64,000 nt of DNA from Acidobacteriota bacterium (GCA_039683095.1 JBDKSB010000012.1:280293-344292), one strand, 5' to 3'; counted from the first letter of the stretch, positions 17,448 to 36,097 are shown. Program-made: numbers and translations. The notes: generated from the letters alone by a model not told the origin.

Positions 17448-17652
17448 GGCTTTCCCCTTTCTACCTCCACTATCGACCCGAAACCCGCTGATGTCAAGCC
17501 GAACACCCCAGCGCGCTTAGCCGTGCTGGAGGTTTCTCGATCCGGTTCATACCATCTACTGGGACCGGCTTCCCCCATGGCCTGCGCGGCCGTCGAGCCC
17601 GGCAAGGGACCGGGGAGAGTCCGCAACTTCATAGTTATCAGTGAATTAGATA
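17448..17652. other. Gene-free gap left of attL
   Basis: About 200 bp between the 17,447 gene and the attachment repeat. Open frames here are GC-type shadows without ribosome-binding sites. I see no RNA gene or clear promoter. Confidence 0.5.
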
Positions 17653-17697
17653 TGGCGTGCCTGAGAGGATTCGAACCTCCGGCCTTTGGATCCGGAG
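17653..17697. repeat. attL: duplicated 3' part of tRNA-Arg(CCG)
   Basis: A 45-bp direct repeat of 36,021-36,065 with one mismatch (G at 17,682, A at 36,050). It contains the anticodon loop, variable and T arms, acceptor 3' strand and CCA end of the tRNA, but the 5' half of the tRNA is missing. It marks the left edge of the integrated element. The 105 bp to the first gene hold no feature. Confidence 0.9.
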
Positions 17698-17802: not shown

Positions 17803-18669
17803 TTAGACGATCTTGATCCGGGAGGCGACGTCCAGGAAGAACTCCTTCGACCAGATCGCCAAAGCGGTCGCGTCCCTCACGAAAGGCTCGACCTCGCGAC
17901 GGATCTGGTCGATGTCGACCTTGTCGATCCTCTTCGCTAATAAGTCGCGCAGGTCCCCTGCCGTCAACGGCGCCACGCCCTGCCAATGCCCGGTCTGCCG
18001 CATCCTCTGCTCGAGGTGGGCAAGATGCAGCTCGGGATGATAGGCCGTGAACCAAACAAGATCGTACCAGTCACGACCCTTGACCCGGCTCTTCCACTCA
18101 CGGCAGAGAACGGCGTGCATCTTGCCGGCGAAGAGATCGGGCAGGCTGAACGTCCTGACCGCGAACGGGACTGGCCGCAGGAGATAGCGGACTTCGGTCG
18201 AGAAGCCCGGGGGCGGGTCGGTGTCGACCTCGAGCTTGATCTTCAGCACCTGGTTCCGGGGGACCTGCTGGACGAGACCCTTGTCAAACTCAACCGTGAT
18301 CATCTGGGTCCGAGTGTCGGCCTTGAGGAAAGCGGACTGGATGGCCGCAGAGGCCGGCTTGGCCCGGCTCTCGATCTCGACAACGAACCCGAAGGACGCA
18401 AGCTCTCTCTTCAGGGCTTCGCTGTAGTCGCCCAGGTCGAAGTTCTTGCGCTTCTCGAGGAGTGAAAAGTCCAAATCCTCAGAGAAACGGTCGAGCCCGT
18501 AAAGCACCCGGAGCGCTGTGCCGCCATAGAAGGCGGCATTTTCGAAGAACTTGCTTCTCCAGAGGCCGAGAAGCGCGATCTCCTGCATGACCTCCCTCAA
18601 GGCCCACAGCGAGTCCCGCACCGAGCGGATCTCGTAAGTCGCCAGTATCTGACGGACGGCCTCGTTCAT
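17803..18669 (-). CDS. abiEii: AbiEii-family nucleotidyltransferase toxin
   Basis: A 288-residue toxin of the AbiE (type IV-like) toxin-antitoxin family. The DNA polymerase beta-like nucleotidyltransferase signature is complete: FYGGTALRVLYGLDRFSEDLDFSL, with GG-TAL at 49-53 and SEDLD at 63-67. Later conserved blocks (LPDLFAGKMHAVL, KGRDWYDLVWF) are also present. Relatives transfer nucleotides to tRNA and so stop phage or cell growth. The ATG overlaps the TGA of the antitoxin gene by four bases, the normal arrangement. It is the first gene inside attL. Length is normal. Confidence 0.93.
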   Translation of the reverse strand: MNEAVRQILATYEIRSVRDSLWALREVMQEIALLGLWRSKFFENAAFYGGTALRVLYGLDRFSEDLDFSLLEKRKNFDLGDYSEALKRELASFGFVVEIESRAKPASAAIQSAFLKADTRTQMITVEFDKGLVQQVPRNQVLKIKLEVDTDPPPGFSTEVRYLLRPVPFAVRTFSLPDLFAGKMHAVLCREWKSRVKGRDWYDLVWFTAYHPELHLAHLEQRMRQTGHWQGVAPLTAGDLRDLLAKRIDKVDIDQIRREVEPFVRDATALAIWSKEFFLDVASRIKIV

Positions 18670-19325
18670 TGGCTCTCCCCCTTTTCAGATCTCTGGATTC
18701 GCCTCACGAGCCCGCTGAGGTGCCTTAGCTTCAACGAACGGTAGCGTGTGGCGAAATCGTCGATCCTCTCGGCGGACAACGACCGGAGGGCGCCGGCGTC
18801 GACCCTCAGGTCTGCCTCGAGGAACCGGCCCATCTCCGCGATCGACGCGATGCGTCCGCCCCGCACCGAGACGACCTTGTCGGCTAACGCCTTCTCGGGC
18901 GAGGCGATCAGGAACGCCTGTCGGTTCTCCGCCTCCACCCGGACCACGCCCACCTCGTAGGCGCGCGCCGGGACCTGCCGGTAAACGAAAAGGCCCACGG
19001 GGGTGGCGAACCGGCGCGAGCGGTTCGGCGTGACCGACGTCAGGGCTTCGGCCCTTTCGGGGATCAGCCCGTGATAGGCGAGCGCGTAATCCAGCGAGAC
19101 ATAGGAAGGGCCGTAGATGAGATTGGCCAAGAGCTCCTTCGAGAAGGGACGCCTGCGATAACGATTGCCGAAAACGTAAAGCCCCTTCTTCACCCTCACG
19201 ATGACGCCCTGGCGCAGCAGGTCGTTGATCCTGTTCCTGGGGTAGGCCAACCCCTTCAAAGCGTCGATCAGGGTCTGATAGTCGAAGACCTCAACCTGAA
19301 TTTGATCGCGGACATCGACGGGCAT
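18666..19325 (-). CDS. abiEi: AbiEi-family antitoxin and autorepressor
   Basis: A 219-residue AbiEi protein. Residues about 13-53 form the winged-helix DNA-binding part (VFDYQTLIDALKGLAYPRNRINDLLRQGVIVRVKKGLYVFG), followed by the C-terminal antitoxin domain with YVSLDYALAYHGLIPERAEALTSVT and SPEKALADKVVSV. It neutralises AbiEii and represses its own promoter by binding inverted repeats. Exactly such a repeat overlaps the promoter just upstream. AGGAAAA lies about six bases before the ATG. Overlap with abiEii couples their translation. Confidence 0.93.
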   Translation of the reverse strand: MPVDVRDQIQVEVFDYQTLIDALKGLAYPRNRINDLLRQGVIVRVKKGLYVFGNRYRRRPFSKELLANLIYGPSYVSLDYALAYHGLIPERAEALTSVTPNRSRRFATPVGLFVYRQVPARAYEVGVVRVEAENRQAFLIASPEKALADKVVSVRGGRIASIAEMGRFLEADLRVDAGALRSLSAERIDDFATRYRSLKLRHLSGLVRRIQRSEKGESQ

Positions 19326-19886: not shown

Positions 19887-20744
19887 TCATTTTTTCGAGT
19901 CCCCCTTTAATCCCAGCCCGGATGCGTCCATCCAATAAAGCCCGACGGTGTCCCTTTCGAGCTTCAGGAAGAAGAAGAATCTTTCGTCCGGGGAAACGTA
20001 AGGGCAAACCGCGCTGGCCGGAGTCTCCAAGCGCCTAGCAGACTCCCAGCGGCCGTCCTTACCCCGGAAACTAACCCACAAGTCGGAATCGCGCAGGAAG
20101 ATCAGGTATCGGCCGTCCGGAGCGACGAAGGGGCTGCCCTCATGGGCCTCGGAGTTGACCGCCGCATCGATACTCAACGGCTTCGCGAACCCCCCTCCGT
20201 CCCGGGGTTCGGCCGCAAACACATCGTCCCGGCCCTTTGAGCCGCGCCGCTCGGAGCCGAAATACAGGATCCCCTCGGCGTCGACAGACACCTGCCAGTG
20301 GAGGTGCTCGTCATTGATCTCGGAGCCGAGCGGGACGGGTTCTCCCCACCCGACAGCCGTCCGCTCGGCGCACCAGACCCGTTCTCGTCTCGGGTCGCCG
20401 GGCCAACGCGGACGATCAGAGTTGAAGTAGAGCTTCCGGTCATCGGGAGACAGTTTCGGACCATCCCCGCCCTCCTCCCGAGTAAAGGGCAGCGCATCGG
20501 GCTTCGTCCAGACGCCGTTCTTACAGATCGTCACGTAGATGTGATCGTCGGACCAGTAGATCTCATCGCCGGCCCGGGAGATCGTCACCGATGCATGCTT
20601 GGATGCGACGATCCCCGGCGCGAAAAGCTCAGGGGTCGTTCCCGGAAGCTTCTGGCCAAGATAGGGACCTGTAAGCTTTTCCGGCGACTGGGCCCAGGCT
20701 GACAGAATGAGGAACGAACAGAATACCAAGCATGATCTCTTCAT
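19887..20744 (-). CDS. Secreted TolB-like PD40 beta-propeller protein
   Basis: A 285-residue secreted protein with leader MKRSCLVFCSFLILSAWA. It has several WD40-like PD40 units: DGPKLSPDDRKLYFNSDRP, QVSVDAEGILYFGSERRG, GSPFVAPDGRYLIFLRDSDLWVSF and VCPYVSPDERFFFFLKLE. These form a TolB-type propeller, usually a protein- or ligand-binding surface in the periplasm. GGGGAGG lies six bases before the ATG. It is an unexpected cargo in a mobile element because it looks like host secretome genes of this kind of genome. It may have been picked up from a chromosome. No enzyme role can be given. Confidence 0.8.
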   Translation of the reverse strand: MKRSCLVFCSFLILSAWAQSPEKLTGPYLGQKLPGTTPELFAPGIVASKHASVTISRAGDEIYWSDDHIYVTICKNGVWTKPDALPFTREEGGDGPKLSPDDRKLYFNSDRPRWPGDPRRERVWCAERTAVGWGEPVPLGSEINDEHLHWQVSVDAEGILYFGSERRGSKGRDDVFAAEPRDGGGFAKPLSIDAAVNSEAHEGSPFVAPDGRYLIFLRDSDLWVSFRGKDGRWESARRLETPASAVCPYVSPDERFFFFLKLERDTVGLYWMDASGLGLKGDSKK

Positions 20745-21130: not shown

Positions 21131-21319
21131 ATGAAACCCCTGAAACTCAAGTGCGTCCTTTACACGGACGACGGTGAGACGTTCCTCTGCATCAGGCAGT
21201 TCTACGTCACCGATGTTGCCACGCAGGTTTTTCGAGAAGAGAACTTTGCGGGCATGAAGCTGAAACGTGTCGACAAAATGGAGGAATATCATGGAAGCGA
21301 CAACCGAGACAAAATCTAA
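21131..21319 (+). CDS. Small protein before the helicase gene
   Basis: A 62-residue protein of unknown family (MKPLKLKCVLYTDDGETFLCIRQFYV...). It is probably an alpha/beta fold with no leader. AAGGAGAAAG gives a strong start. Its 3' end overlaps the helicase gene by 29 bases, and the helicase ribosome-binding site lies inside it, so translation is probably coupled. A regulator or replication accessory role is possible but not shown. Confidence 0.65.
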   Translation: MKPLKLKCVLYTDDGETFLCIRQFYVTDVATQVFREENFAGMKLKRVDKMEEYHGSDNRDKI

Positions 21320-22832
21320 GAAAGCAACCTATGGTTTGCCCGAGAATATGGAGCGACAGGTAATCGCTTGGATGATCTTCTTTCCGGAAGCTTGGCCCGA
21401 AATTGTGAGCATCGTCAAACCTGAATACTTTGATCTCAAGGCCTACCAGGACCTGGTTCAAATCCTACTAGAGTTCTACGAAAGGTATAAAAAGCCCCCA
21501 GAGATTGAGACGCTGTTTCAGGAGTTGGATACATTTCTTGATTATGCACTGACCAATATCCGGAGACCGCCAGACCATCCGGACGCGAATTTAGAGGGTG
21601 ATATTCGCAAGATCATTAAGGATCACCTGTGGGCGATCATTGACGAGGGATTGTCGCCCGACTTCGAATATGTGCGTGACCGGGCAATCGAATTCGCCCG
21701 GCAAAGAGGGATGAGAGAGGCCATCATCAAGTCGGTCGATCTTCTGAAGAAAGAGGATTACGACGGCATCTTGAAAGAATGGAAGGAGGCGGCTTCCTTT
21801 AGTCCACAAGAAGGCGGGTTGGATATCGTCGACCTGGCCGATGTCGAGCGCAAAGAGATCGAATGGTTCTGGCACCATAAGATCCCTAGGGCCAAGCTCT
21901 CGTTGATCGTCGGCGATCCGGCGACGGGCAAGTCCTGGTTCACGATGTTCCTGGCCGCGTGCGTTACGACAGGGGCATCCCTCCCCCATTCGGCCCATCA
22001 AACGGAAAAGGGCCGGGTGGTAATCCTATCGGCTGAGGATGACCCCGAGGATACCATCGTGCCCCGGTTGGAGGACTGCGGCGGCGACAAGTCCATGGCC
22101 CACCTTATCCAAGGCACGAAGCAGGGCAAGATGTTTAACTTGGCCGAGGACCTGGACCGGTTGCGTTCCTACCTCCAAGCCAAAGGCGGCGTTCGGCTGA
22201 TCATAATTGACCCGATCTCGGCCTATATAGGGACCGGCAACAAGGTCAACTCGCACAAGGACACGGACGTAAGGGGCATCCTTTCGCCGGTCGTCAAGCT
22301 GGCAAAGGATTTCGACGTGACGATCATCGGGGTCATGCATCTGAATAAGAGCCAAGACCTCGGCGCTATCTATCGGGTCTCCGGTTCGATGGCCTTTGTT
22401 GCTCAGGCGCGTTCGGTCTGGCTAATGACACAAGAGGACCGCGAGGGCGAAGACAGGACGCTCCGGTATTTCTCGCCGGTCAAGGCAAACCTTTCCCCCG
22501 TTAAGGAAGGCCTCGTATGGCGGGTCCAGGACGGAGGAGGCCTCGAATTCTTTGACCCCGGCATCCAGCCGCCCCCTGTCCAAGAACAGTTGGGGCCGCG
22601 TCAGCCGGAGCGGGCCTCGAAGCTGGACGAAGCCATGCGCTGGCTCCATGACCTCCTTGAGGACGGTCAGCCCAAGGCCCAGGCAGAGATCATCGACTTG
22701 GCTTCTGCCGAAGGCATTTCCAGGTCCACCATCGACAGGGCCAAGAAGAAACTCGGGGTTAAGTCTGAAAAGATGCCCGGCGGATCGTCGCCCTGGGCCT
22801 GGGTCCTGCCGAGGCCGGCGCTCGAGAATTAG
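21291..22832 (+). CDS. RepA/DnaB-like replicative helicase (AAA_25 type)
   Basis: A 513-residue hexameric-helicase-like protein. Residues about 15-90 resemble the DnaB N-terminal domain (ENMERQVIAWMIFFPEAWPEIVSIVKPEYFD). The RecA-type core has Walker A GDPATGKS (208-215), ILSAEDDPED (245-254), Walker B RLIIIDPIS (302-310) and the sensor GVMHLNKS. A winged-helix-like tail (ISRSTIDRAKKKLGVKSEKM) ends the protein, as in plasmid and phage RepA helicases. The ATG at 21,291 has GGAGG six bases upstream; an ATG 24 nt earlier has none. It supports autonomous replication of the element, probably with the iteron region at 27.1 kb. Confidence 0.88.
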   Translation: MEATTETKSKKATYGLPENMERQVIAWMIFFPEAWPEIVSIVKPEYFDLKAYQDLVQILLEFYERYKKPPEIETLFQELDTFLDYALTNIRRPPDHPDANLEGDIRKIIKDHLWAIIDEGLSPDFEYVRDRAIEFARQRGMREAIIKSVDLLKKEDYDGILKEWKEAASFSPQEGGLDIVDLADVERKEIEWFWHHKIPRAKLSLIVGDPATGKSWFTMFLAACVTTGASLPHSAHQTEKGRVVILSAEDDPEDTIVPRLEDCGGDKSMAHLIQGTKQGKMFNLAEDLDRLRSYLQAKGGVRLIIIDPISAYIGTGNKVNSHKDTDVRGILSPVVKLAKDFDVTIIGVMHLNKSQDLGAIYRVSGSMAFVAQARSVWLMTQEDREGEDRTLRYFSPVKANLSPVKEGLVWRVQDGGGLEFFDPGIQPPPVQEQLGPRQPERASKLDEAMRWLHDLLEDGQPKAQAEIIDLASAEGISRSTIDRAKKKLGVKSEKMPGGSSPWAWVLPRPALEN

Positions 22833-23227: not shown

Positions 23228-24106
23228 ATGATTCAAAAACGGATGCCACTCGAAAAGTCCTGGAACCCGAACCGGCTCTTCTCCCGCGTTCCTAAAAGCG
23301 CCCTCAAGACGCCTCTCGGGATTCTGTTCGAGGGCGACTGCCTAGACATCTTCCCGAAGATAAAGGACCAATCGGTGGACATGATCTTCGCCGACCCGCC
23401 GTTCAATCTGGGCAAGGTCTATGGCAAGAAGGTCAACGACAATCTGCCTGATCAAGAATACATCGAGTTCACTAAGAAATGGCTCAAGGAGTCGGTCAGA
23501 GTCCTTAAAGACGGCGGGGCGATTTTCGTCTACAACCTGCCCCGGTGGAATATCGTCGTCGGGGCCTATCTACTCGAACTGGGATTGACGTTCAGGCATT
23601 GGATAGCCATCAACATCAAGGCGGGCCTTCCGATTCCGGGGCGGCTCTATCCGTCCCACTATGGGCTCCTCTATTTCACGAAGGGCAAGGCCAACGTCTT
23701 CCGCAGAATCCGAACTCCTATCGAGCTGTGCCGACACTGTGGGGAAGAGATCAAGGACTACGGCGGGCACAGGGACGCCATGAATCCGCTCGGGGTCAAT
23801 CTGACAGATGTCTGGAATGACATTCCTCCGGTCAGGCATTGGAAATTTAAGAGCAAGCGCCGCAAGGCCAACCAGCTTTCGACGAAGCTCCTGTCCCGAG
23901 TTGTTAATATGTCGACGAATAGGGGGGACGTAGTGCTTGACCCCTTCGGCGGGAGTGGCACGACCTATGACGTATGCGAACATGAAGGTCGGCATTGGAT
24001 AGGTATCGAATTGGAGAACTGTGACGTGATCGTCGAGCGGTTAGAGAATAAGGACCTTTACCACCATCCGAATCACGACTACGTGGAGCCTGACCCCTTA
24101 GCCTAG
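23228..24106 (+). CDS. Site-specific DNA methyltransferase (beta-class, N6-A or N4-C)
   Basis: A 292-residue DNA methyltransferase. Catalytic motif IV ADPPFNLGK comes first (residues about 57-65) and the AdoMet-binding motif I DPFGGSGTT is near the C-terminus, which is the beta-class order. Between them lies a target-recognition region with a CRHCGEE zinc-like knuckle. DPPF fits exocyclic amino methylation of adenine or cytosine; the target site is not readable. It faces the putative restriction gene tail to tail with a nine-base overlap. Expression from a near-leaderless promoter would allow methylation early after entry. It could also act as a solitary protective enzyme. Confidence 0.93.
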   Translation: MIQKRMPLEKSWNPNRLFSRVPKSALKTPLGILFEGDCLDIFPKIKDQSVDMIFADPPFNLGKVYGKKVNDNLPDQEYIEFTKKWLKESVRVLKDGGAIFVYNLPRWNIVVGAYLLELGLTFRHWIAINIKAGLPIPGRLYPSHYGLLYFTKGKANVFRRIRTPIELCRHCGEEIKDYGGHRDAMNPLGVNLTDVWNDIPPVRHWKFKSKRRKANQLSTKLLSRVVNMSTNRGDVVLDPFGGSGTTYDVCEHEGRHWIGIELENCDVIVERLENKDLYHHPNHDYVEPDPLA

Positions 24107-24709
24107 CGCCCGTCCGTCCTTCCCTTTCGGAATCTTGGGCACGTCGAAGCTGGTAGCATCGTACTCGACTTCATAGATCCTTAGAACTCCATCCTTGACG
24201 TGTGTGGTGCCCCAGAGAGGGAAATAGGGCTGAAGCTCGCTAACATTCCCAATCCGATCAGTCAAGAACTCTCCAAGCTTGTCACTAGGAACGACGAGGA
24301 TGCCGCCTTTGATGCCGCCCAACTGCAGGGTGAGGAGGAGCTTGTTGATGGCGCGGTGACTCGAGGAGATGTTCCCTGTCTCCCACTCGAAGCCAATATA
24401 GCACCGATCAAACTGATACAGGGCGTCTAGATCACCGGTTCTCAGGACACCACCCTCGATCTTTGGCAGTTTCTCCGTCTTCCAGCCAAGCTCTCTTAAC
24501 TTGCCCAGGCAGGGCTTTTTGATCGGGCAGACGCCGTTACCCTGATTCCTCTTCTTCCCGCTTTCGGGATAGATGGTGAACTTGCCGGAGCCGTGGGGCC
24601 AATCGGTCTTGCGGATGGCCTTTTCGACGTCGGCGCAGGCCCGTCGCCATTCCGCTGATCGGGGGAATGGACCCTTAGCAAGAATGTCGTAGCGCCCGGT
24701 AATCTTCAT
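24098..24709 (-). CDS. Putative type II restriction endonuclease (BamHI/BglII-like fold)
   Basis: A 203-residue protein next to the methyltransferase. DLDALYQFDRCYIGFEWETGN followed by SSHRAINKLLLTLQLGGIKGGILVVPS fits a PD-(D/E)xK core of the BamHI/BglII/BstYI sort, with Asp and the E-x-E pair (EWE) as metal ligands and the region after GGIKGGILVVP as the core strand. Length is right for an orthodox type II enzyme. The start has no Shine-Dalgarno, but CATAAT lies seven bases before it, so a leaderless mRNA is predicted. The function is inferred from the motif and the gene pairing; sequence identity to a known enzyme was not tested. Confidence 0.7.
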   Translation of the reverse strand: MKITGRYDILAKGPFPRSAEWRRACADVEKAIRKTDWPHGSGKFTIYPESGKKRNQGNGVCPIKKPCLGKLRELGWKTEKLPKIEGGVLRTGDLDALYQFDRCYIGFEWETGNISSSHRAINKLLLTLQLGGIKGGILVVPSDKLGEFLTDRIGNVSELQPYFPLWGTTHVKDGVLRIYEVEYDATSFDVPKIPKGKDGRALG

Positions 24710-24716
24710 TACTCAG

Positions 24717-25845: not shown

Positions 25846-25856
25846 TTCTCTAAAGA

Positions 25857-26717
25857 ATGGGGCAACATAGTCTGCCACAGTACTATCTGCGTGGCTTTGC
25901 GCCGACGGGGACGAAAGCAATCTGGAGGTATGAGAAGGGGAAGCCCAATCCCCTCTCCCTCCAAATCAAAAGCGCCGCCCAACGGAAGCAACTCTATGGC
26001 AAGGTCGAAGCCTACCTCGCTCAGGAAATCGAGGGACCTGCGAACGCCATATTAAAGAAGATCGAGAATCGCGAAGCGATCTCAGACTCCGAGAAACTGG
26101 CCTTCAGCAGGTACGTATTCGTATTTTGGAAACGCGTTGAGGCCGCATTCGAGAGATTCAAAGAAAAGAGCCCGAAGGTCGCCCATGACGAGATGCAGAA
26201 GCTAGAAGCCTGCCTTCGTGAGCTTGAGAAACAAAATCCCGACAAAGCCGAGCGTTGTGAGGAGATCAGAAAGGACGGGCAGAGGATATATAACGATCTA
26301 GCGCAGAACCCAACGAAGCAGATTTGGGGCAAGTCCATCCAATATAGTAATGAGCAGATGCCGGAAGTGATGAGCAAGATGACGTGGGTTTTCTACACTT
26401 GCACGTACCCGGACATCTTTATAACCAGTGACAATCCAGTTTTCATTCACGCGATCGGCATAGGCAAGCCACACTCGGACATGTCATTCCCGGTAACGAA
26501 AGAGGTAGCCCTTCTGGCTACCTGGAGGAAGGGGAGCAACCTCCGGTATCGTGAAGCGTGTCCCCAGCAGATAAGGGAGTTGAACAGGAGGACGGCGTTC
26601 AACGCGTTACGCTTCGCCTTTGCCTCTGGAAATAAGGCATGGATCACTGACTTGCTGAACAAGCCGGAGCACCAAGTCCATTTGTGGGTTCAGCAATTTC
26701 CTGACAAAGCACGGTGA
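25857..26717 (+). CDS. DUF4238-family protein
   Basis: A 286-residue DUF4238 protein. The family start QHSLPQYYLRGFAPTGTKAIWRYEKGK is followed by YGKVEAYLAQEIEGPANAILKKI, and the later block FYTCTYPDIFITSDNPVFIH is the conserved ITSDNPV motif. The fold and biochemistry are unknown; members often lie in mobile elements and defence islands. It has its own promoter and no ribosome-binding site. It reads alone, followed by about 165 bp before the next small gene. Family placement is firm on the motif pattern, function is not assigned. Confidence 0.82.
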   Translation: MGQHSLPQYYLRGFAPTGTKAIWRYEKGKPNPLSLQIKSAAQRKQLYGKVEAYLAQEIEGPANAILKKIENREAISDSEKLAFSRYVFVFWKRVEAAFERFKEKSPKVAHDEMQKLEACLRELEKQNPDKAERCEEIRKDGQRIYNDLAQNPTKQIWGKSIQYSNEQMPEVMSKMTWVFYTCTYPDIFITSDNPVFIHAIGIGKPHSDMSFPVTKEVALLATWRKGSNLRYREACPQQIRELNRRTAFNALRFAFASGNKAWITDLLNKPEHQVHLWVQQFPDKAR

Positions 26718-26881
26718 CCCAATCTCTCGCTGGTGCTCCGAGTCCCCTAATCCTCTTTCAAACGACTTAGGTCTTTCACCCCCCCCCGTAAAATCAGCTA
26801 GCCTAAAAACGCGAGAATTGGCCGTCGGTATCACCTCTAGGGGTGATTCGTTGTCCCCCAAAAGGAGTTACCCTCTGAGCC

Positions 26882-27055: not shown

Positions 27056-27060
27056 CAGAC

Positions 27061-27286: not shown

Positions 27287-27590
27287 CGGCCTGTCGTGGG
27301 AATCCTGGGCCAGCAAGTTTATAACACCTGGGATGTGTGGGCTATAGCAAGAATCGTAGGCCGAGTGGGCCGGTTGCCCAGCGGGCAGGGCTACAAACTC
27401 CTGCCCCCCACCACGACAAGCGCACCAGCGCGGGGTCTAAGCTCAAAATGGCCCCTTAGTGATCTATCGGGTGCCCGGTCGGGGGCCTGATCAAGCCCTG
27501 AATCCAGGCAATAACTATTGAGCGCCTGTCTCGGAATCTTGCTGAGCGGGGCCTGCTTCTCCTGATGCGATTTAAGGTCTAGTTAAGACA
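27287..27590. other. Gap after the iteron array
   Basis: About 300 bp. A 72-codon frame starts inside the last iteron but has no ribosome-binding site and ends in low-complexity sequence, so it was not called. I see no RNA gene. Confidence 0.4.
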
Positions 27591-27640
27591 GTCAATAGTC
27601 TTTATAGAGTATTGACACTGAGATTTTTGGATTTTATAAT
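27591..27640 (+). promoter_or_regulatory. Full-consensus promoter of the right-hand module, with operator-like repeat
   Basis: TTGACA (27,612-27,617), exact 17-bp spacer, TATAAT (27,635-27,640). An inverted repeat GTCAATA/TATTGAC (27,591-27,597 and 27,610-27,616) overlaps the -35 box and could bind a repressor. Such a strong promoter in an integrated element would normally be held off by a regulator. Confidence 0.8.
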
Positions 27641-27660
27641 TGATGGTGAAGGTGAACAGA

Positions 27661-28032
27661 ATGGATAACACGAGAAGGAAGAATCTGAGGGGCCTCCCCC
27701 AGCGCCTTAAGGCGATAGTTGACCGAATCGCCAAAGCCGAGTTCGAGGAAATGGGGCCAACTCCGATCATCACCGGTGCACCGCCCGGCATCACAACCCC
27801 TGACTCCGACTATCTTGCGTTCTGGCGCATCGAAGGAGCGATTGAGTTCAACACATTAGGTGGGCGGGAGTGGTTCCTTCAGGCGTCGGATGAGCAATTG
27901 GAGCAGATCGTCCGACATGAGCTTCTTCATGGACTCCTCTGGCAACGGGGCGAACCGAACGGGGACACGGATCTCCCGTTCATTATCGAGTGTGCGAAGC
28001 GCAACATTCTAGTGAACGAGTCCAGCATATAA
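27661..28032 (+). CDS. HELLH-motif zinc metallopeptidase-like protein
   Basis: A 123-residue protein with a gluzincin-type motif HELLHGLL (HExxH at 86-90). The N-half is basic and helical, followed by a beta-rich region. It is short for a peptidase and resembles small phage metallopeptidase-like proteins. The ATG at 27,661 has GAAGGTGA at a good distance; an ATG 18 nt earlier overlaps the -10 box region of the mRNA start. It is the first gene behind the strong promoter. The target is unknown; anti-host or regulator cleavage is possible. Confidence 0.7.
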   Translation: MDNTRRKNLRGLPQRLKAIVDRIAKAEFEEMGPTPIITGAPPGITTPDSDYLAFWRIEGAIEFNTLGGREWFLQASDEQLEQIVRHELLHGLLWQRGEPNGDTDLPFIIECAKRNILVNESSI

Positions 28033-28057
28033 GTGCTAAAGCGTAAAGGAATCGAAC

Positions 28058-28744
28058 ATGACTAATCCCGAAGGCTGGCAAGGTGATACCGGCCAGCATG
28101 TCCGCTACCTGATCGATGATCAAGTCGACGCTTTCTTTAAGGCGGTAGAGGCCAACACGGACCCTGCCCTGCGGGTCCGGGACACGGCCCTTTTCCGCTT
28201 GATGTTGTCGTATGGCTTGCGCTGTAAAGAAGCGGAGATCCTCACCATCCCGCACGACGTTGACCTTGCCTCCGATCCGCCGCGACTCTGGGTCACGCGA
28301 GTGAAGGAGAAGCACTGGCGCACCGATCCCAAGACCGGCGAGAAGCGCTACATAAAGAAAGACCGTCGAGGGCACTGGTATCCCCTCACCCGCCGAAACG
28401 TCGAGCGCCTGAAGGCATGGCTCTCGGTCCGACGCAAGTTCACAAAGGCCAAGGACGGGCCTCTCTTCATAACCATCCACGGCGAGCCGATCACCGCGAA
28501 TTACATCTATCACATCACGGCCCGCTATGGCGCGAAGGCCGGGATTGAAGGGCTCTACCCGCACCAGTTCAGGCACACGGCGGCAATCAGGCTTGCCCGC
28601 GAAGGCGCGTCAGCCTTCGCAATAAAAGAGGCCTTGGGTCATGTTAGCGTATTGTCCAGTGAACATTACGTGACCATGGCTGGCCCTGCCCGATTGAAGA
28701 TGGACCTGGCCTCACTGGAACGGATCGAAGGAGCCGACGAATGA
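28058..28744 (+). CDS. Tyrosine recombinase, catalytic domain only
   Basis: A 228-residue tyrosine recombinase. The catalytic set is visible: Arg55 (SYGLRCKEAEIL), His169 and Arg172 (HQFRHTAAIRL), His195 (LGHVSVLSS) and the nucleophile Tyr204 (EHYVTM). The N-terminal SAM-like core-binding domain seems missing, as the arginine box starts at about residue 50. AAAGGAAT precedes the ATG. It overlaps the next gene by four bases. It may resolve multimers or help excision rather than act as the main integrase, because the serine recombinase is the gene at the att site. Confidence 0.9.
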   Translation: MTNPEGWQGDTGQHVRYLIDDQVDAFFKAVEANTDPALRVRDTALFRLMLSYGLRCKEAEILTIPHDVDLASDPPRLWVTRVKEKHWRTDPKTGEKRYIKKDRRGHWYPLTRRNVERLKAWLSVRRKFTKAKDGPLFITIHGEPITANYIYHITARYGAKAGIEGLYPHQFRHTAAIRLAREGASAFAIKEALGHVSVLSSEHYVTMAGPARLKMDLASLERIEGADE

Positions 28745-29568
28745 CTAACGACGCTGAATGGATAAACACACGCGGACGATTCCTGAAAGGCGAGCTTGAG
28801 GCCTACATCAGGACAGGCACGGACCTGCCCGGCTTGATCAAGGCCGCCGAGACGTTTACCCGGCAATACTGCCATCGGCTCGAACTCAAGCCCCAACGGA
28901 CCGAGGAAAAGGTTAGAGATATGCGCGAGCGCCTGCTCCCGGCCTGGCTGGCCGATCATCCGAAGGATGACTGGTGGGATCATTTCACTCAGTTTGCATT
29001 GTTCTCCATCGAGAACGCGAAGGATGAGCCCCTGGACGCCGTTGGCCTCGACGAGGCCCTGGGCGGTCGCTATGATCAAGCGCCTTACCACGAGCCGGAC
29101 CTTGAGGCCATAGATGAGGAAGTAGCCAAGGCCACGGTGCATGACTTCCTTGAGACCCGCCGTCTGCTCTTCGATAGGGCCGAGAAGTGCTCCTCACCGC
29201 TCTATCAGATGATACTCAGCGACCCCGAGAAGCATCAGGCGTTGCTGGCCTTATTTGTTGTGCTTGACCCTGACACGTTCGAGGCCCTGGTCGCTGAGTT
29301 CGCCGGGGAGACGATCTCGTTCCCGTCCGATAAGGCCCTGGGCGACTTCGCCAGGGACCGAGAGATCGTAGAGTCCCGTAACCGGGGCGCTAAGGTCGAG
29401 GACCTGGCCGCCCAACACGGGCTCAAGTCCCCGGGTAGAGTGTCCCAGATCGTCAGCCGCCAACGGGCGCTCCGTCGAGACGATGAGGCATTGGAACGAG
29501 CCTTAATCGCCTCCCTGAATCGTGCACTCCGGGCCTCGGCCAAGGCCCGACGGCTGGCCCGGTTTTAG
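28741..29568 (+). CDS. Putative HTH protein, 275 residues
   Basis: A 275-residue protein coupled to the recombinase gene by an ATGA overlap. The middle is acidic and helical, and residues about 225-250 look like a helix-turn-helix (AKVEDLAAQHGLKSPGRVSQIVSRQRAL) before an Ala/Arg-rich tail. No leader is present. A DNA-binding role, such as late regulator or packaging partner (small terminase-like), is suggested only by the HTH and the position before the packaging genes. No family is recognised. Confidence 0.6.
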   Translation: MTNDAEWINTRGRFLKGELEAYIRTGTDLPGLIKAAETFTRQYCHRLELKPQRTEEKVRDMRERLLPAWLADHPKDDWWDHFTQFALFSIENAKDEPLDAVGLDEALGGRYDQAPYHEPDLEAIDEEVAKATVHDFLETRRLLFDRAEKCSSPLYQMILSDPEKHQALLALFVVLDPDTFEALVAEFAGETISFPSDKALGDFARDREIVESRNRGAKVEDLAAQHGLKSPGRVSQIVSRQRALRRDDEALERALIASLNRALRASAKARRLARF

Positions 29569-29619
29569 TCCCTCTCCCGATTTTCTAAAACTACACCCAT
29601 TTATTGAAGGAGTTGAACT

Positions 29620-30177
29620 ATGCTCATTACAAAGCTGATCAATGACCGACGGCGAGACGACGTGCTGGTCCGCGAAGCGGACTCCACTCCCATTGTGACC
29701 CTGGGACCGGGCGGGCGTGATGAAGTTGCGACAGAGGACCCGTATGCTGTGCTTGCCCCGTTCTCCGAAGTGAGATTTCTGGATGAAGCGCCTTATGCCA
29801 ACTGCACTCCCCGTCCCGACTTCCAGCCACCGCATCGGAAGAGGCCCTGTCTCTTTCTTCTCACCAAGGGCCGCGGCTGGGTCGAGCGCTTGGGACCCCT
29901 GACTCTCATGCGTGGCGTCCCGGTGACAGTGGACCTGTCTCTGGATGATCAATACATCATGTTCAATCGCGTCGAGCTTGGTGTCCCGGTCATGAAGCGC
30001 TTTGCCTCGGAACAGCATGACGGCCTCGTGATGGTCCGCTGGGACTTTGAGGAACGATGCTCCTCGCGGCCCATTGAGGAACTCGAAGCCATCCAGCGCG
30101 AACTAGAGGCGCTGGAGGCTAAGGCCACGCTCGAACGGGCCGCCGTCAGTGCGCTGAATCGAGCGACCGATGAGTGA
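29620..30177 (+). CDS. Hypothetical protein, 185 residues
   Basis: A 185-residue protein of unknown family. A beta-rich body (DDVLVREADSTPIVTLGPGGRDEVATEDPYAV, DLSLDDQYIMFNRVELGVP) is followed by a charged helical tail (PIEELEAIQRELEALEAKATLERAAVSAL). The layout resembles small virion or decoration proteins, but nothing specific is matched. AAGGAG is five to seven bases before the ATG. It lies 50 bp after the HTH gene. The 235 bp after it hold no gene I can support. Confidence 0.6.
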   Translation: MLITKLINDRRRDDVLVREADSTPIVTLGPGGRDEVATEDPYAVLAPFSEVRFLDEAPYANCTPRPDFQPPHRKRPCLFLLTKGRGWVERLGPLTLMRGVPVTVDLSLDDQYIMFNRVELGVPVMKRFASEQHDGLVMVRWDFEERCSSRPIEELEAIQRELEALEAKATLERAAVSALNRATDE

Positions 30178-30412
30178 GGGGGCCGGGAATCTTGACATGC
30201 TGTCCCGGTGCCAGCATCGGCCGAGGCGGAATCCGGACAAGGCCTCTGGAAGCCGTCTCGCCCCTCCTCTTCCTTTCTGTGGTATCAGGGCGCGTCCTTG
30301 CGTCCTTCGTCCGGGCGGGTGCAGGCCCGCGTCGGTCGGCCCCGCCTGGGCGAGAATCTACTGTCCCACCGATCAAGGCCGGGACGGTTCGCTCTTTAGA
30401 TAGGACAATAAG

Positions 30413-31045
30413 ATGCTCTTAACTGAAAAATCTGAGATCCGTCAGACCTCATTGACTGCTGACGGCGATTCCTTCCGCATGAAGGTGCCTGTCCTTCAGT
30501 CAGACATCTTCAATTCCAACAAGCGCCGATATCCACTCGCCGTCGTTAAGGCCGCCGTCGAAGAACTCCGATCAAAACTCCAGAAGCGGATTGCTTACGG
30601 TTCCACCCGCCATGAGAAGAACCTTGAGATTGATCAGGTCAGTCACATCATCGAAGACGTTGAACTCGATGAGAAAGGCCTGGCCTCGGCGGTCATCAGA
30701 ATCTTCAACACTGCCCGGGGCAAGAACCTGTCGGCGATCATCCGAGGTGGTGGCTCGCTGGGCGTCAGCGCCCGGGGCGCCGGCGATGTGGATGAGTCAG
30801 GCAATGTTAAGCCGGGCTACAAATTGCTCGGCCTCGATTTCGTGACCGACCCCTCGTTCAACTTTCACGTCGGCAAGGAAGCCCTGATGTTCGAGTCCCG
30901 CGAGCTTGAGGAAGACGGCCCCATGCCTGAGGAGCTGATGCTTACTAAGGAACAACTCGCCAACCGTTATTTGGGCGCGTTGGTGGCTGGCTTCCGGGGC
31001 GACTTTGAGTCGTACCGGAAACTCTTTGAGAAGAAAGGAAACTAA
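30413..31045 (+). CDS. Prohead protease, T4 gp21 (peptidase S80) type
   Basis: A 210-residue head-maturation protease. The start has the family strands (KVPVLQSDIFNSNKRRYPLAVV), the likely catalytic His67 lies in STRHEKNLEI, and the nucleophile Ser119 in the hallmark GVSARG. LLGLDFVTDPSFN follows as in gp21-type proteins. Such proteases cut scaffolding and capsid proteins during assembly. No major capsid protein follows. The gene is preceded by a 235-bp gap and followed after one base by the next small gene. The assignment is from motifs and length. Confidence 0.85.
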   Translation: MLLTEKSEIRQTSLTADGDSFRMKVPVLQSDIFNSNKRRYPLAVVKAAVEELRSKLQKRIAYGSTRHEKNLEIDQVSHIIEDVELDEKGLASAVIRIFNTARGKNLSAIIRGGGSLGVSARGAGDVDESGNVKPGYKLLGLDFVTDPSFNFHVGKEALMFESRELEEDGPMPEELMLTKEQLANRYLGALVAGFRGDFESYRKLFEKKGN

Positions 31046-31046
31046 G

Positions 31047-31202
31047 ATGGAACAACATTACGAACTCATTATTAAAGTCAATGGCGAAGGCACTCCCGAG
31101 AAAGCCGCCGAGCTGAGCACCAAGGTGATCGAGCAGATCAAAGCTGCTGGCGAGATGAGCCTGGGCAATTTGCAGGCCAGCACCACCCTCATTAAGAAGT
31201 AA
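31047..31202 (+). CDS. Small protein, 51 residues
   Basis: A 51-residue protein (MEQHYELIIKVNGEGTPEKAAELSTKVIEQIKAAG...) with a beta-strand then helices. GAAAGGAAACTAAG precedes the ATG and the gene starts one base after the protease stop. It resembles small phage assembly or inhibitor proteins in size only. Confidence 0.6.
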   Translation: MEQHYELIIKVNGEGTPEKAAELSTKVIEQIKAAGEMSLGNLQASTTLIKK

Positions 31203-31204
31203 TC

Positions 31205-31453
31205 ATGCTTCAATATGCTTGGAGCGGACCGGAGGACCCCCGCGCCTGCGGTGAGGTTCTGGACGATCTTGAAACGGCTGAGATGCCGATGGGAGAGTGG
31301 CGCTTCTTTATTTGGAACGATGAGAACGGCGACGAGTATGACGTCGTGGGTTGGGTCGGTCCCGGTGAGACGTTCCCGGCCAGCTTTGACGAAGACGCCG
31401 AGAAGAAAGCGTTCTTCAAGCTCCTGAACATGGAACTCAGGATAGGAGTTTGA
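31205..31453 (+). CDS. Small acidic protein, 82 residues
   Basis: An 82-residue acidic protein (MLQYAWSGPEDPRACGEVLDDLETAEMPMGEWRFFIWNDENGDEYDVVGWVG...). No family is recognised. It starts two bases after the preceding stop codon, inside a tight run of overlapping or abutting genes, so it is likely translated by coupling. No ribosome-binding site stands out. Confidence 0.6.
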   Translation: MLQYAWSGPEDPRACGEVLDDLETAEMPMGEWRFFIWNDENGDEYDVVGWVGPGETFPASFDEDAEKKAFFKLLNMELRIGV

Positions 31454-31454
31454 C

Positions 31455-31727
31455 ATGACAAGGACACCGGCGCTTGGAAGGAGAAACAAGGTAAGAAAAC
31501 TATTCATCGGCAATGTGTCTTACGAAGCCAATGAGGACGATCTGCGGAAGCTCTGCCGTGAGATCGGCCCCATCGTCCGGTTCAATCTAGTGCCGACGCG
31601 TGGTATTGCGTTTTGCACCTACGAAGATGAGGTGGACGCCGCCCGCGCCATTGACGACCTGAACAAGCGGCTTTACATGGGCCGAAGGTTAGTCGTAGAG
31701 GAGGCCCGCGATGCGGGTCAAAGGTAA
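31455..31727 (+). CDS. RNA-binding protein with one RRM domain
   Basis: A 90-residue RRM protein. RNP2 is KLFIGNVSY (residues 15-23) and RNP1 is RGIAFCTY (49-56), with the usual beta-alpha-beta spacing and a final strand LYMGRRLVVEEA. RRM proteins bind single-stranded RNA through aromatic residues on these strands. Bacterial RRMs are mostly known from cyanobacteria and some proteobacteria, and it is unusual to find one among packaging genes. It begins two bases after the preceding stop codon and ends just before the next gene. Role in phage RNA control is speculation. Confidence 0.85.
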   Translation: MTRTPALGRRNKVRKLFIGNVSYEANEDDLRKLCREIGPIVRFNLVPTRGIAFCTYEDEVDAARAIDDLNKRLYMGRRLVVEEARDAGQR

Positions 31728-31782
31728 AGTCCGGGCCGCCTTTATACGACGGACAAGGGGCTTGATCAAAGGGAGAAAGAAG

Positions 31783-32430
31783 ATGAATGAACATTTTGAC
31801 GAAAACAGTCCGGTATTGTTCATGACCACGTTTGAGAACAATAGCGAACTGCCATGGCAGATTTGCGAGGACGGCGACGCGTTGTTCCAGGTCCAGCCGG
31901 GCAAGATCGCTCGTTTGGAATCCTGGAAGCCGACGACCAACTGGGCCAGGTGGTCCAAAGTCGTCCGTGGAAAGGACCTGAGGTTGACGTTGACCGAAAA
32001 CCCGGCTTGGACGAATCCTTGGCTGAACCAGCATTACTGCTTGGAACTGGAGAACTGGGCCGGGGCACCTGTGGAATCCATCCGGGTCTATCAGCCAACG
32101 CCCATCCGCACCTCAGCGGCTGACTATGTCGATGTCCTGCTTGATGTGCCCCGCATCATCCCGCTGAACATCTGGGACGAATTGATCCGGTACAAGAAGA
32201 TCATTTGGAAGATAGCTCCTGTCAAAATCCGCATCACGGGCACCAACTACGTCCGAACTGAGGATCGCCCGATCAAAGAATGCGTCCCGAGAGATAAGTC
32301 GGACCTGAAGAACGTCCTGAAAGAGCGCCAGCGACTAGAGGTCGATGCTCTGAAGGAGCGCCAGGAGAAGATGGAAGAGGAGCGTGAGGCCCTGACGAAG
32401 AAGCTCGAACAAGACCTGCTCGGAGCCTAG
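31783..32430 (+). CDS. Hypothetical protein before terminase, 215 residues
   Basis: A 215-residue protein. The first about 165 residues are beta-rich with many tryptophans (SWKPTTNWARWSKVV, NPWLNQHYCLELENWAG), and the last about 50 form a long charged coiled coil (KSDLKNVLKERQRLEVDALKERQEKMEEEREALTKKLEQDL). The ATG at 31,783 follows GGGAGAAAGAAG; an ATG at 31,711 overlaps the RRM gene and has no site. Position directly before terL could suit a small-terminase or adaptor role, but the fold is not the usual one. Confidence 0.65.
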   Translation: MNEHFDENSPVLFMTTFENNSELPWQICEDGDALFQVQPGKIARLESWKPTTNWARWSKVVRGKDLRLTLTENPAWTNPWLNQHYCLELENWAGAPVESIRVYQPTPIRTSAADYVDVLLDVPRIIPLNIWDELIRYKKIIWKIAPVKIRITGTNYVRTEDRPIKECVPRDKSDLKNVLKERQRLEVDALKERQEKMEEEREALTKKLEQDLLGA

Positions 32431-32432
32431 TC

Positions 32433-33980
32433 GTGTCCATCGTTGAGGTGATGCTGGACCAGGACCTGTTCGGCTCTTACTTCCCGGAGCCGGAGACCTG
32501 GGTCAACTGGATGGCCTTTCTCGACGTGTTTGAGGGCCAGGACCTGACCCCTGCCCAGTTGGAGGCCTATCAGAAATTCACCGGGCGGACCAAGTATGAG
32601 CCGGGCTCTCCGTTCGATACCGCCTACGTCATTTCCGGCAGAAGATCAGGGAAGTCGAGGATTGCCAGCGTTGTGGCTGTCTACTTGGCCCTCTTCTCTG
32701 GCCTCCACGAAAAACTGTCACCGGGTGAGACGGGCTGGGTCCTGATCATCGCTGGAAAGAAAGAACAAGCGCAGGCCATCTTCGGCTATGTTAAGGCGCT
32801 CGCGCAGAAGTTCAAGAAGGACATCATAAAAGAGAACGCCGATGAGGTCTGGTTCGCCAACGGGACGGCGATCAAAGTGACCGCTGGCACTTGGCGTGGT
32901 GTCCGTGGCGCGACTGTCCTGGGCTGTCTCGTAGACGAGCTGGCATTCCTCCGCTCAGATGAGGAGCGATGGACCGCGAATCCCGCTGAGGAATTATTGC
33001 GAGCGATTCGCCCGGCGATTGTGAAGCACGGAAAGTTGCTGGCGATCAGCACCGTTTATGCCGCCCGAGGCCCACTTTATGCGGCGTGGAAGAAGAACTG
33101 GGGCCGAGACAGCAAGACGTTGGTCTGGCTGGCCACAACGCCGGACATGAACCCAACCTTTAATCAAGCCAAGATCGACGAGGAGATGGAGGAAGATCGA
33201 GCCAACGCCCTGTCGGAATACTATTCACAATGGCGCGAGGACCTGCAGACGCTCATCGAATCGTCGCTCGTGCGGGCCTGTATGATGAAGGAGGAGATGC
33301 CCCCGGTGCCTGGTTTGCGCTATACCGCGTTCCTGGACCTCAGCGGCAACAAATCGGACAGTCATGCCTTAGCGATTTGCCACAAGGAAAAGGACCTGGT
33401 CGTGTTGGACACGTTCCTAGAGATCGAGCCGGGACGTGGCACTGTGGATGCCGTTGTAACGGAGTTCAGCAAATTGGCAAAGGTTTTCGGTGTCCGAGAG
33501 ATCTCTGCGGATGCGTTCGGCGCGGAATGGGCGAGTGAACCGTTCCGTCGAGCCGGTGTTCCCTTGATCAAGAGCCTGATGCCCGCCTCAAACATCTTCC
33601 TGAACGCGGCCCAGTTGATCAGGAGTGGAAAGGTGGCCCTGGTGTTCTCGGAAAGGGTCTTGTCACAATTCATGTGCTTGGACAGGAGACCTGGACCGGG
33701 CGGTGTTGACGTGGTGCAGAAGGTGCCCGGCAGTCATGTGGACCTCGTGAACGCGATCTGCGGCGCTGTGGTTACGGCGTCATTGGAAGTCGTCCGGGTC
33801 CCGGCTCTGCCCGTCATTGGGCATCATCAGGCCGATCGCTACCTCAGCAAGCCGATCAAAGATGCCCGCAGGCGGGAGGAGGTCCAGAGGAACTGTGAAG
33901 ACGAGATGGACGACTTCATGCACCAGGACGGCCACGCGACCCGAGTCGGCCAGGGCATTCCCAGGAAGTGGTGGCAGTAA
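32433..33980 (+). CDS. terL: Phage terminase large subunit
   Basis: A 515-residue packaging ATPase/nuclease. Walker A SGRRSGKSR is at about 68-76 and Walker B GCLVDELAFL near 164-173. The C-terminal RNase H-like nuclease has Asp302 (FLDLSGNKSDS), Asp360 (ISADAFGAEW) and Asp437 (SHVDLVNA). It pumps DNA into preformed capsids and cuts it at the ends. The start is GTG, two bases after the preceding stop codon, with CGGAG in front. It overlaps the next gene (TAATG). All key residues are intact, so it should be functional. No portal gene follows, which is unusual for terL. Confidence 0.93.
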   Translation: MSIVEVMLDQDLFGSYFPEPETWVNWMAFLDVFEGQDLTPAQLEAYQKFTGRTKYEPGSPFDTAYVISGRRSGKSRIASVVAVYLALFSGLHEKLSPGETGWVLIIAGKKEQAQAIFGYVKALAQKFKKDIIKENADEVWFANGTAIKVTAGTWRGVRGATVLGCLVDELAFLRSDEERWTANPAEELLRAIRPAIVKHGKLLAISTVYAARGPLYAAWKKNWGRDSKTLVWLATTPDMNPTFNQAKIDEEMEEDRANALSEYYSQWREDLQTLIESSLVRACMMKEEMPPVPGLRYTAFLDLSGNKSDSHALAICHKEKDLVVLDTFLEIEPGRGTVDAVVTEFSKLAKVFGVREISADAFGAEWASEPFRRAGVPLIKSLMPASNIFLNAAQLIRSGKVALVFSERVLSQFMCLDRRPGPGGVDVVQKVPGSHVDLVNAICGAVVTASLEVVRVPALPVIGHHQADRYLSKPIKDARRREEVQRNCEDEMDDFMHQDGHATRVGQGIPRKWWQ

Positions 33981-34342
33981 TGAGAAAGCCTCAACCAGGA
34001 CGCCGAGCACATGGGAGGAAAACGCCCAGCAACGGGCGCTCAGGGGGAGAACTCCCTGTCCATGGGCTAGAGGATGGTTTCTCGGCTTCGGAGCTTTTGC
34101 GTGAGCTTGAGAAAGGCCTTGATAACGAGATTTATTCCGAGGTTGAACTACCTCCCGTCACGCCCCACGAGCCGGTTGCGGAGGTCCATAGAAAGGCTCA
34201 GGAGTTCCTGCGCCACAACGCCAGGCTGATCCTGCCGGCCTGCGCCGATTGCCAGCGCGAGTGCAAGCTCATGGCACCTGCGGGAGCGGAAATCACGCTT
34301 ATTTGTAAAGATTGGGTTCCTAATAATACTCTTTGCCTTTAG
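33980..34342 (+). CDS. Hypothetical protein with a zinc-like Cys cluster, 120 residues
   Basis: A 120-residue protein whose ATG overlaps the terL stop codon. The first 40 residues are basic and Gly/Ser-rich; the C-terminal part holds LPACADCQRECKLM and a later cysteine, a possible zinc site. No family is recognised. Coupling to terL suggests a packaging or excision partner, but this is inference. Confidence 0.6.
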   Translation: MRKPQPGRRAHGRKTPSNGRSGGELPVHGLEDGFSASELLRELEKGLDNEIYSEVELPPVTPHEPVAEVHRKAQEFLRHNARLILPACADCQRECKLMAPAGAEITLICKDWVPNNTLCL

Positions 34343-34362
34343 GACTGGTTATGCCTTATAAT
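34333..34362 (+). promoter_or_regulatory. Promoter of the serine recombinase
   Basis: TTGCCT (34,333-34,338), 18-bp spacer, TATAAT (34,357-34,362). It lies partly inside the previous gene. A GAGGAG follows 11 bases before the ATG. Confidence 0.55.
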
Positions 34363-34385
34363 GATCATGAGGAGTACTCAGGCCT

Positions 34386-36032
34386 ATGAACAAGATGGCT
34401 GAGGACAGGCGGGCAGTCGCGTATATCCGCGTTTCGACCAAGCCCCAGGATCAGTATTCCCCTGAGGTCCAAAAGGACAAGTGTCGGGCCTATGCTGATC
34501 GTCTTGAGGTCAATCTCAAGATCGTTAAGCCGTTTGAGGAAGCCCGTTCGGGCTGGAAGGCCAACGCCCGAGTCGAGTTCTACAAGATGTTGGAGTTCAT
34601 AGAGCAGGAGAAGATTCCGAATCTGATCTATGCCTACCCCGACAGGCTCTCGCGCAATACAGAGGATTACGTCAAGCTGAAGGCGACCAACGTCAAGTTA
34701 CATAACGCCAACACAGGCATCTCCTTCTCCCCTAATAACCCTGACGACTTCGAGCAGATTGCCGCCTTCGAGTATGATCAGGTGGATTCCAAGAAACGAT
34801 CTCATCAGATCAGCAAGGGCGTCCGCGACGGCTATGCCAAGATCGTGGAGAAGGGCAAGTTCCCGCATGCCGTCCCTCTTGGCTATGACCCTGACTGGAA
34901 ATACGTCAATGGCAAGCTGGTGAAGCGAATCGTCATTGACCCGGTCCGAGGACCGCTGATTCAGCAGATGTTCCGGCTCTTTGCCACGGGCACCTACACC
35001 AGGAAGACAATCGCGGCGAAGATAAGGGACCTGGGCCTGCGGTCCAGGAAAGGGAACATCATCGCCGTCTCACAGATCGAGAAGTACCTGAAGGACGTAA
35101 AATACACCGGCCAACAGTTCCGGTGGAAGGGCGGTGAGGCTCAGGAGTGGCATGACGACTGCCCGCCCTTGATCAGCACGGCGCTATTCAATGAAGTCCA
35201 GGCCGTCTTTGAAGCCAAGAGCCGCCCGAGATGCCGGGGCGGTCATGACTATCCTCTCAAAGGACTGATAACCTGCGGACTCTGCGGCTCTCCCTACATA
35301 GAGGAGGACCACGAGCGCCACTACTTCCGGTGCACTTACCAGAGGCAGGCGTGTAACAAGCTCGGCTCGCCTCGGCTCAAAGGCTCTGAACTCGATCTGC
35401 TCTTGGAGACGGCCATTGGCATGATCGACTTTGAGCAGAGCGTCTACGAATGGCTCAAGGGCGAGGTCGAGGAGACATACCGGCTGAACCGGGAGACGGA
35501 GGCCGTCGAGAAGAAGCGCCTCACTGCCGAAAAGGATTCCATAGAGGAAGAACGGTCCAGGGCTCTCCAGGCCTTCACGAAGGGCATCACTACCGACGAG
35601 GGCCTTGTCCGGGAGGAGATCAACCGCCTAACCGACAGGAAGGCCAGGATTGAGGCTCGCCTGAAGGAGCTTGACGCCGGCGAGGACATGATCATTCAAA
35701 ACTCGCTGGATACATTAGGAATCCTCAAGGACTTTAAGAATCAATATCTTAGCGCAGACCCTGAAAAAAGGCGGCGAATGCACGTTCTTCTATTTAGGAA
35801 GGTCGCCGTCCACCCGTTGAAGCAGTCAAGGAAGGAGCTTCTGGCCGACCCGAAGCGAGCATTGCTTCTCGGCGAATATCCTCTGGACATCGAGTGGAAT
35901 GAACCGTTTGACTGGCTCTTTGAGGGCAAGTCCATCCGGGAACTTGGCCGGTTGGCAGATGAGGCCGTGACCGAGGACATGATGCTCGGCTGGATGAAGA
36001 AATCCGAGGAAAAAGGAATGTGGCGTGCCTGA
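34386..36032 (+). CDS. Large serine recombinase (integrase)
   Basis: A 548-residue large serine recombinase. The resolvase domain has the nucleophile Ser17 in YIRVSTKPQ and the PDRLSRNTEDY block. The recombinase domain (GVRDGYAKIVEKGKFPHAVPLGY) and a zinc ribbon (CGLCGSPY ... YFRCTYQRQACN) follow, then a long coiled coil typical of these integrases. Its last four codons and stop lie inside the attR repeat and the CCA end of the tRNA, so integration supplies the gene's 3' end. It is the most likely integrase of the element. Confidence 0.95.
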   Translation: MNKMAEDRRAVAYIRVSTKPQDQYSPEVQKDKCRAYADRLEVNLKIVKPFEEARSGWKANARVEFYKMLEFIEQEKIPNLIYAYPDRLSRNTEDYVKLKATNVKLHNANTGISFSPNNPDDFEQIAAFEYDQVDSKKRSHQISKGVRDGYAKIVEKGKFPHAVPLGYDPDWKYVNGKLVKRIVIDPVRGPLIQQMFRLFATGTYTRKTIAAKIRDLGLRSRKGNIIAVSQIEKYLKDVKYTGQQFRWKGGEAQEWHDDCPPLISTALFNEVQAVFEAKSRPRCRGGHDYPLKGLITCGLCGSPYIEEDHERHYFRCTYQRQACNKLGSPRLKGSELDLLLETAIGMIDFEQSVYEWLKGEVEETYRLNRETEAVEKKRLTAEKDSIEEERSRALQAFTKGITTDEGLVREEINRLTDRKARIEARLKELDAGEDMIIQNSLDTLGILKDFKNQYLSADPEKRRRMHVLLFRKVAVHPLKQSRKELLADPKRALLLGEYPLDIEWNEPFDWLFEGKSIRELGRLADEAVTEDMMLGWMKKSEEKGMWRA

Positions 36033-36065
36033 GAGGATTCGAACCTCCGACCTTTGGATCCGGAG
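36021..36065. repeat. attR: 3' part of tRNA-Arg shared with attL
   Basis: 45 bp, one mismatch to attL at 17,653-17,697. It runs from the CCA end to the first base of the anticodon loop. Identity stops exactly there, which is the anticodon-loop type of tRNA attachment site. Confidence 0.9.
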
Positions 36066-36097
36066 TCCAACGCTCTATCCAGCTGAGCTACAGGCAC
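36021..36097 (-). tRNA. tRNA-Arg (anticodon CCG)
   Basis: Minus strand, 77 nt with encoded CCA. The acceptor stem GTGCCTG/CAGGCAC, D-arm GCTC/GAGC, anticodon stem TTGGA/TCCAA with loop CTCCGGA (anticodon CCG, reads CGG), T-arm GGAGG-TTCGAAT-CCTCT and discriminator G all fit. The recombinase stop codon lies on the opposite strand inside the acceptor region. Confidence 0.95.

Follow-up and report, generated by a model that had tools for sequence, protein, structure and literature searches.

Among the described phage satellites, the cf-PICIs carry the complete set of head genes (for capsid, protease, portal, connectors, both terminase subunits and HNH; PMC10690885), the PICIs and SaPIs either rely on the terminase of the helper or supply a small terminase subunit (TerS) or a protein that binds TerS (PMC10690885), and MulchRoom and MiniFlayer have genes for both terminases as well as for portal, capsid and scaffold (PMC10690885). 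The PLE of ICP1 remodels stolen capsids by a protein of its own (PMC10945586), and the VEIMEs and tycheposons are integrative elements of marine bacteria, many of which are thought to be satellites (PMC10803314, PMC11389934).

Here we describe, within a stretch of 64,000 nucleotides (the window), an 18.4-kb element (17650-36065) integrated in a tRNA-Arg(CCG) gene of an uncultured Aminicenantes bacterium. With the cf-PICIs it has in common that a small integrated element carries its own large terminase subunit (TerL) and head maturation protease; unlike in them, neither portal nor connectors were detected among the members examined here, most of which also lack the capsid protein. With the PICIs and SaPIs it shares integrase, replication genes, defence cargo and (as its genes suggest) redirected packaging, but it brings a complete TerL, while the likeness to MulchRoom and MiniFlayer (satellites of virulent phages) lies in the possession of own packaging genes. 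To our knowledge, neither a prohead protease nor a TerL has been described for the PLE, which is of similar size (~18 kb) and has the virulent ICP1 as helper, just as the helper here could plausibly be a virulent T4-like phage. Some VEIMEs and tycheposons carry capsid or terminase genes; they were set beside the window element by description and not by sequence, and overlap is possible. Satellites as such are already known, and a kit of TerL and protease that lacks a portal, and in most cases a capsid too, fits none of the described families that were tested (cf-PICI, PICI and PLE).

The element and its integration site

Both ends of the element are formed by a 48-bp repeat of the 3' end of tRNA-Arg(CCG), reaching from the anticodon loop to the CCA, and the 3' end of the serine integrase gene runs into the tRNA (Table 1). 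The G+C content is ~48-63% between the two good repeats and ~65-74% downstream of the tRNA, and falls more gradually left of 17650. As in the PICIs, integrase genes accompany a specific attachment site (tyrosine and serine recombinases, tRNA repeat), and as in satellites generally, a small integrated element combines packaging genes (TerL and protease in 18.4 kb) with the lack of a full virion set.

Degraded older copies of this tRNA 3' part also lie in the window, at 14354-14370 and 11343-11390 (79%), and the tRNA-Arg(CCG) locus is an integration site that has been used repeatedly. From 17650-17697 through these two copies the decay of the 3' ends grows leftward, away from the intact tRNA; a like stacking of repeats was seen at the same locus of another genome (G009; C4:486251, 491797 and 497887). 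The BamHI site GGATCC sits in the tRNA sequence at both element ends (17688 and 36056), and the element encodes a BamHI-family nuclease; avoidance of the site within the element was not seen (3 GGATCC observed, ~2 expected under a Markov model). Outside the element, a diverged 120-nt direct repeat occurs six times at 6154-7137, with a spacing of ~150 nt; the array is probably a beta-propeller gene.

Table 1. Features of the integrated element (window coordinates)
Feature	Position	Strand	Evidence or remark
attL	17650..17697		tRNA-Arg(CCG) 3' end copy, 96% to 36018-36065
AbiEii toxin (cargo)	17803..18669	-	PF08843 2.8e-35; PADLOC 1.6e-110
AbiEi antitoxin (cargo)	18666..19325	-	PADLOC 1.4e-63
PD40 beta-propeller protein (cargo)	19887..20744	-	PF07676 8.8e-12
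DnaB/RepA-like replicative helicase	21267..22832	+	AAA_25 4.6e-31; phrog_19 4.6e-23
DNA methyltransferase, BamHI-type R-M pair	23228..24106	+	PF01555 4.3e-42
BamHI-family restriction endonuclease	24098..24709	-	PF02923 3.1e-42
DUF4238 protein (cargo)	25857..26717	+	PF14022 1.9e-26
Short tyrosine recombinase	28058..28744	+	PF00589 1.2e-24; homologues in L013, L017, L026
275-aa protein, C-terminal helix-turn-helix, candidate regulator	28741..29568	+	Mor PF08765 5e-6
o185, paralogue of o215	29620..30177	+	Sequence comparison; homologues in relatives
S77-type (T4 gp21-like) prohead protease, 210 aa	30413..31045	+	Pfam, PHROGs
51-aa core protein	31047..31202	+	Homologues in L013, L017, L156
82-aa protein	31205..31453	+	No Pfam/PHROGs match
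RRM RNA-binding protein, 90 aa	31455..31727	+	PF00076 8.7e-19; homologues in L013, L017, L026
o215, two beta-sandwiches and C-terminal helix	31783..32430	+	AlphaFold2 model
Terminase large subunit, 515 aa	32433..33980	+	phrog_2, TerL_ATPase
124-aa protein	33968..34342	+	No match
Large serine integrase	34386..36032	+	PF00239 3e-19; phrog_95 3.9e-68
attR	36018..36065		3' part of intact tRNA-Arg(CCG), 36021-36097 minus

Packaging genes and their neighbours

The initial annotation had noted a protease (His67, Ser119) and a complete TerL, separated by small reading frames of 51, 82, 90 and 215 residues, and all of these were recovered as described. The protease is indeed a head protease (PHROG head maturation protease, 1.4e-27), but the Pfam match is to the S77 family (Peptidase_S77, 1.5e-10), where S80 had been proposed. 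TerL (GTG start; phrog_2 4e-20, TerL_ATPase 2e-5) carries a Walker A motif (GRRSGKS), a Walker B motif (LVDELAF) and the nuclease aspartates D302, D360 and D437; both Walker motifs and the three aspartates are invariant in 10 of 10 aligned sequences. The claim that these genes occur without portal, capsid or tail agrees with our searches, since no such family was matched among the element's reading frames of useful length in Pfam and PHROGs (highly divergent ones would escape); likewise, no small terminase, TerS family match or pac/cos site was identified in the element.

Whether an HK97 or portal fold hides among the unassigned proteins could be answered in part. The AlphaFold2 model of o215 (pLDDT 88.7) places beta strands in two sandwiches, followed by a 43-residue helix, and in our reading this predicted topology is unlike both HK97 and portal. 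A Foldseek search yielded nothing below E 0.001, VIA-align ranked an AlgF domain first (Z 6.8 over 68 residues), and HK97 capsid and portal were absent from the fold-search listings, which in itself is no proof. By homology, the same holds for o185 (paralogous to o215 by sequence comparison), and the model of the 275-aa protein was too poor to judge except for a helix-turn-helix (residues ~201-240).

The nearest kin of the protease, and of the capsid protein found in some relatives, are in T4-like and very large phages, and those of TerL in other phages; considering that they stem from different phage lineages, the gene set looks assembled.

Relatives and a second protease type

Relatives (those named here are MAGs) were recovered by TerL-alignment scans; none came from a single-TerL scan of genome contigs, nor from single-protein or MCP/protease-alignment scans of IMG/VR. 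TerL was present in 14 of 99 genomes and the protease in 5 of 94, with five TerL-family genes in the host genome (that of the window included). At least ten Aminicenantes elements with a TerL of the window's family have repeat-defined ends (8.8-18.4 kb), and in eight of ten such elements the repeat overlaps a called tRNA gene. Related TerLs span many phyla, and of 48 genome contigs 32 have a recombinase no more than 9 kb from the gene. Of 30 viral contigs with a related TerL, 5 carry the PF04860 portal (the sole portal family searched); it lies tens of kb away from the closer TerLs, and near the gene only where TerL was most distant.

Three elements (window, L013 and L017) share, in nearly the same order, a core of tyrosine recombinase, o185, S77 protease, a protein of ~55 aa, o215 and TerL, with 19-40% identity across members (L013 and L017 to the window: TerL 36-38%, protease 32-39%, o185/o215 19-26%). 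L013 (same genome, contig C1) spans 17.3 kb, flanked by 18-bp repeats derived from the end of a tRNA-Arg(TCT), and encodes a tyrosine recombinase, a Mor-like protein, o185, the ~55-aa protein, protease, o215, TerL, RRM and a serine integrase; L017 (G041, a second Aminicenantes MAG, at tRNA-Asp) has the same set minus the Mor-like protein. The RRM gene precedes TerL in the window and follows it in both others. A shorter version, of protease, TerL, o54, one o185 and a tyrosine recombinase, was also found on a 9.3-kb contig (L156) of a bin labelled, putatively, Woesearchaeota; contig edges cut both of its ends and the left end of L017. Short Cys/His proteins or domains precede TerL or are fused to it in L013, L017, L026 and L156, and none was found in the window. 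Cys-rich proteins of CETCxxCE-like repeats were observed near TerL in two distant elements (L156, 4337-5493; L026, 11284-11523).

A conserved non-coding sequence of ~120-130 nt (25694-25815; also in L239, L234, L236, L235, L238 and L240) had no Rfam match. Present in two copies in the genome, one per S77 element, it was considered as a shared packaging site and dropped, because it also occurs in Aminicenantes genomes without a TerL element and shows little covariation.

Some relatives bear a capsid gene. In a genome of the same genus (G009), the same tRNA-Arg(CCG) site is occupied by an element of 16.4 kb that encodes an S77 protease, TerL, RRM and a major capsid protein of the Gp23 type (6.9e-31) and in which no portal was found, and a locus at a contig end in G048 combines protease, Gp23 (2.4e-35) and TerL. 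Among the relatives, Gp23 occurs only in L024 and L026. In the TerL tree L013, L017, L026 and L029 form one group (support 98), and the grouping of the first three indicates that close relatives differ by gain or loss of a capsid gene; the window's TerL sits on a long branch of unreliable placement. PF04860 was found in none of nine other element-bearing genomes tested (G009, G041, G048 and six more) and once in the host genome, within a prophage. In a 13.7-kb tRNA-Arg element (L023, G013:C1:495000-514900), TerL is accompanied by two tail genes, a tape measure (PF10145) and an HK97 gp10-like one (PF04883), and among the genes scanned there neither capsid nor portal was seen.

In two further elements, L014 (same genome, contig C5; 14.7 kb between 53-bp repeats, which read like a tRNA 3' end although no intact tRNA was called there) and L022 (G053; 13.1 kb between 26-bp repeats without an assigned tRNA), an S78 HK97-type protease directly follows TerL (PF04586, 5e-30 and 6e-30, respectively) and has no detectable relation to that of the window. 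With the protease of the resident HK97-type prophage (~C12:215-254 kb), that of L014 shares 58% identity; the prophage has portal, capsid and its own, unrelated TerL, and was the sole one found in this genome by the portal and capsid search. Furthermore, a 670-aa protein of L014 matches a 647-aa protein of this prophage (by its position, probably the tape measure) at 34-47%. L014 thus looks as a satellite matched to the prophage would, and recombination between neighbours could give the same picture.

Proposed lifestyle, alternatives and meaning

We consider it probable that the element is an integrative phage satellite, which brings its own terminase and prohead protease and takes the rest from a helper. 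Having a packaging motor and a maturation enzyme, and neither shell nor tail, it most likely spreads in the particles of a full virus; the S77 elements are probably parasites of a T4-like or very large phage, as it is to these phages that the protease and the capsid protein of the relatives come closest. We infer helper dependence solely from the missing genes. The searches revealed no helper for the window element, nor a T4-like one in 93 Aminicenantes genomes searched for Portal_T4 (a search that had no positive control) and for Gp23 outside the elements. The suggestion of the initial annotation, a helper-dependent element with its own terminase, is well supported by the precise tRNA boundaries, the satellite-like size, and the recurrence of the capsid-less set of TerL and protease in several elements, in one case with a protease of an unrelated family.

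Upon helper infection or induction the element would excise and replicate, and its own TerL would fill with satellite DNA the proheads made from helper capsid, portal and tail. The S77 protease would cleave the T4-type scaffold and capsid of the helper, during or instead of the helper's own maturation, and may in this way affect maturation, size or interference, as the initial annotation partly proposed. The paralogues o185 and o215 are possible core or shell-binding proteins, and the AbiE and BamHI-type restriction-modification cargo may guard the host and the element's niche.

Prophages often shrink, and the degraded tRNA repeats at 11343 and 14354 show older elements decaying at this very site. 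It is unlikely, though, that the elements are decayed prophages, in which integrase, terminase and protease merely happened to survive the loss of portal, capsid and tail genes: the same small set is intact in members of 19-40% identity with invariant catalytic residues, the ends are intact, the sizes stay within 8.8-18.4 kb, and the pair L014 and L022 arrived at the same combination using a protease of unrelated family. We regard as quite unlikely that the element is an anti-phage interference island, itself not packaged, in which protease, o185/o215 and terminase spoil the head maturation of invading T4-like phages. The neighbouring AbiE and BamHI-type systems would suit it, as would a protease-bearing element without detectable TerL (L181, G076), but a complete TerL (ATPase and nuclease motifs) would be needless, and the helicase, the two recombinases and the capsid-bearing relatives point to transmission; moreover, interference is compatible with a satellite, as satellites also interfere. 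A GTA-like or otherwise domesticated module packaging host DNA is very improbable, for although TerL and protease are kept without a lytic set, GTAs keep capsid, portal and tail, and these elements are mobile, sporadic (as the 14 of 99 and 5 of 94 genomes indicate) and tRNA-integrated with intact attachment sites.

Returning to the satellite reading, we put forward tentatively, as possible but short of probable, that these elements form an undescribed, widespread class, in which an own TerL is joined to a prohead protease matched to the helper type (S77 to T4-like, S78 to HK97-like), that was assembled at least twice, and of which L014 and the C12 prophage would represent a satellite-helper pair.

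Known satellites bend the terminase of the helper, remodel the helper's capsid, or come with an entire head. If our reading is true, a satellite that supplies no more than the motor and the maturation protease would follow a fourth strategy, and phage satellites would be extended to the Aminicenantes (no earlier report was found in the literature searched). It would also mean that a TerL of foreign origin is able to dock on the portal of a helper, and that the supply of protease is a control point in head assembly.
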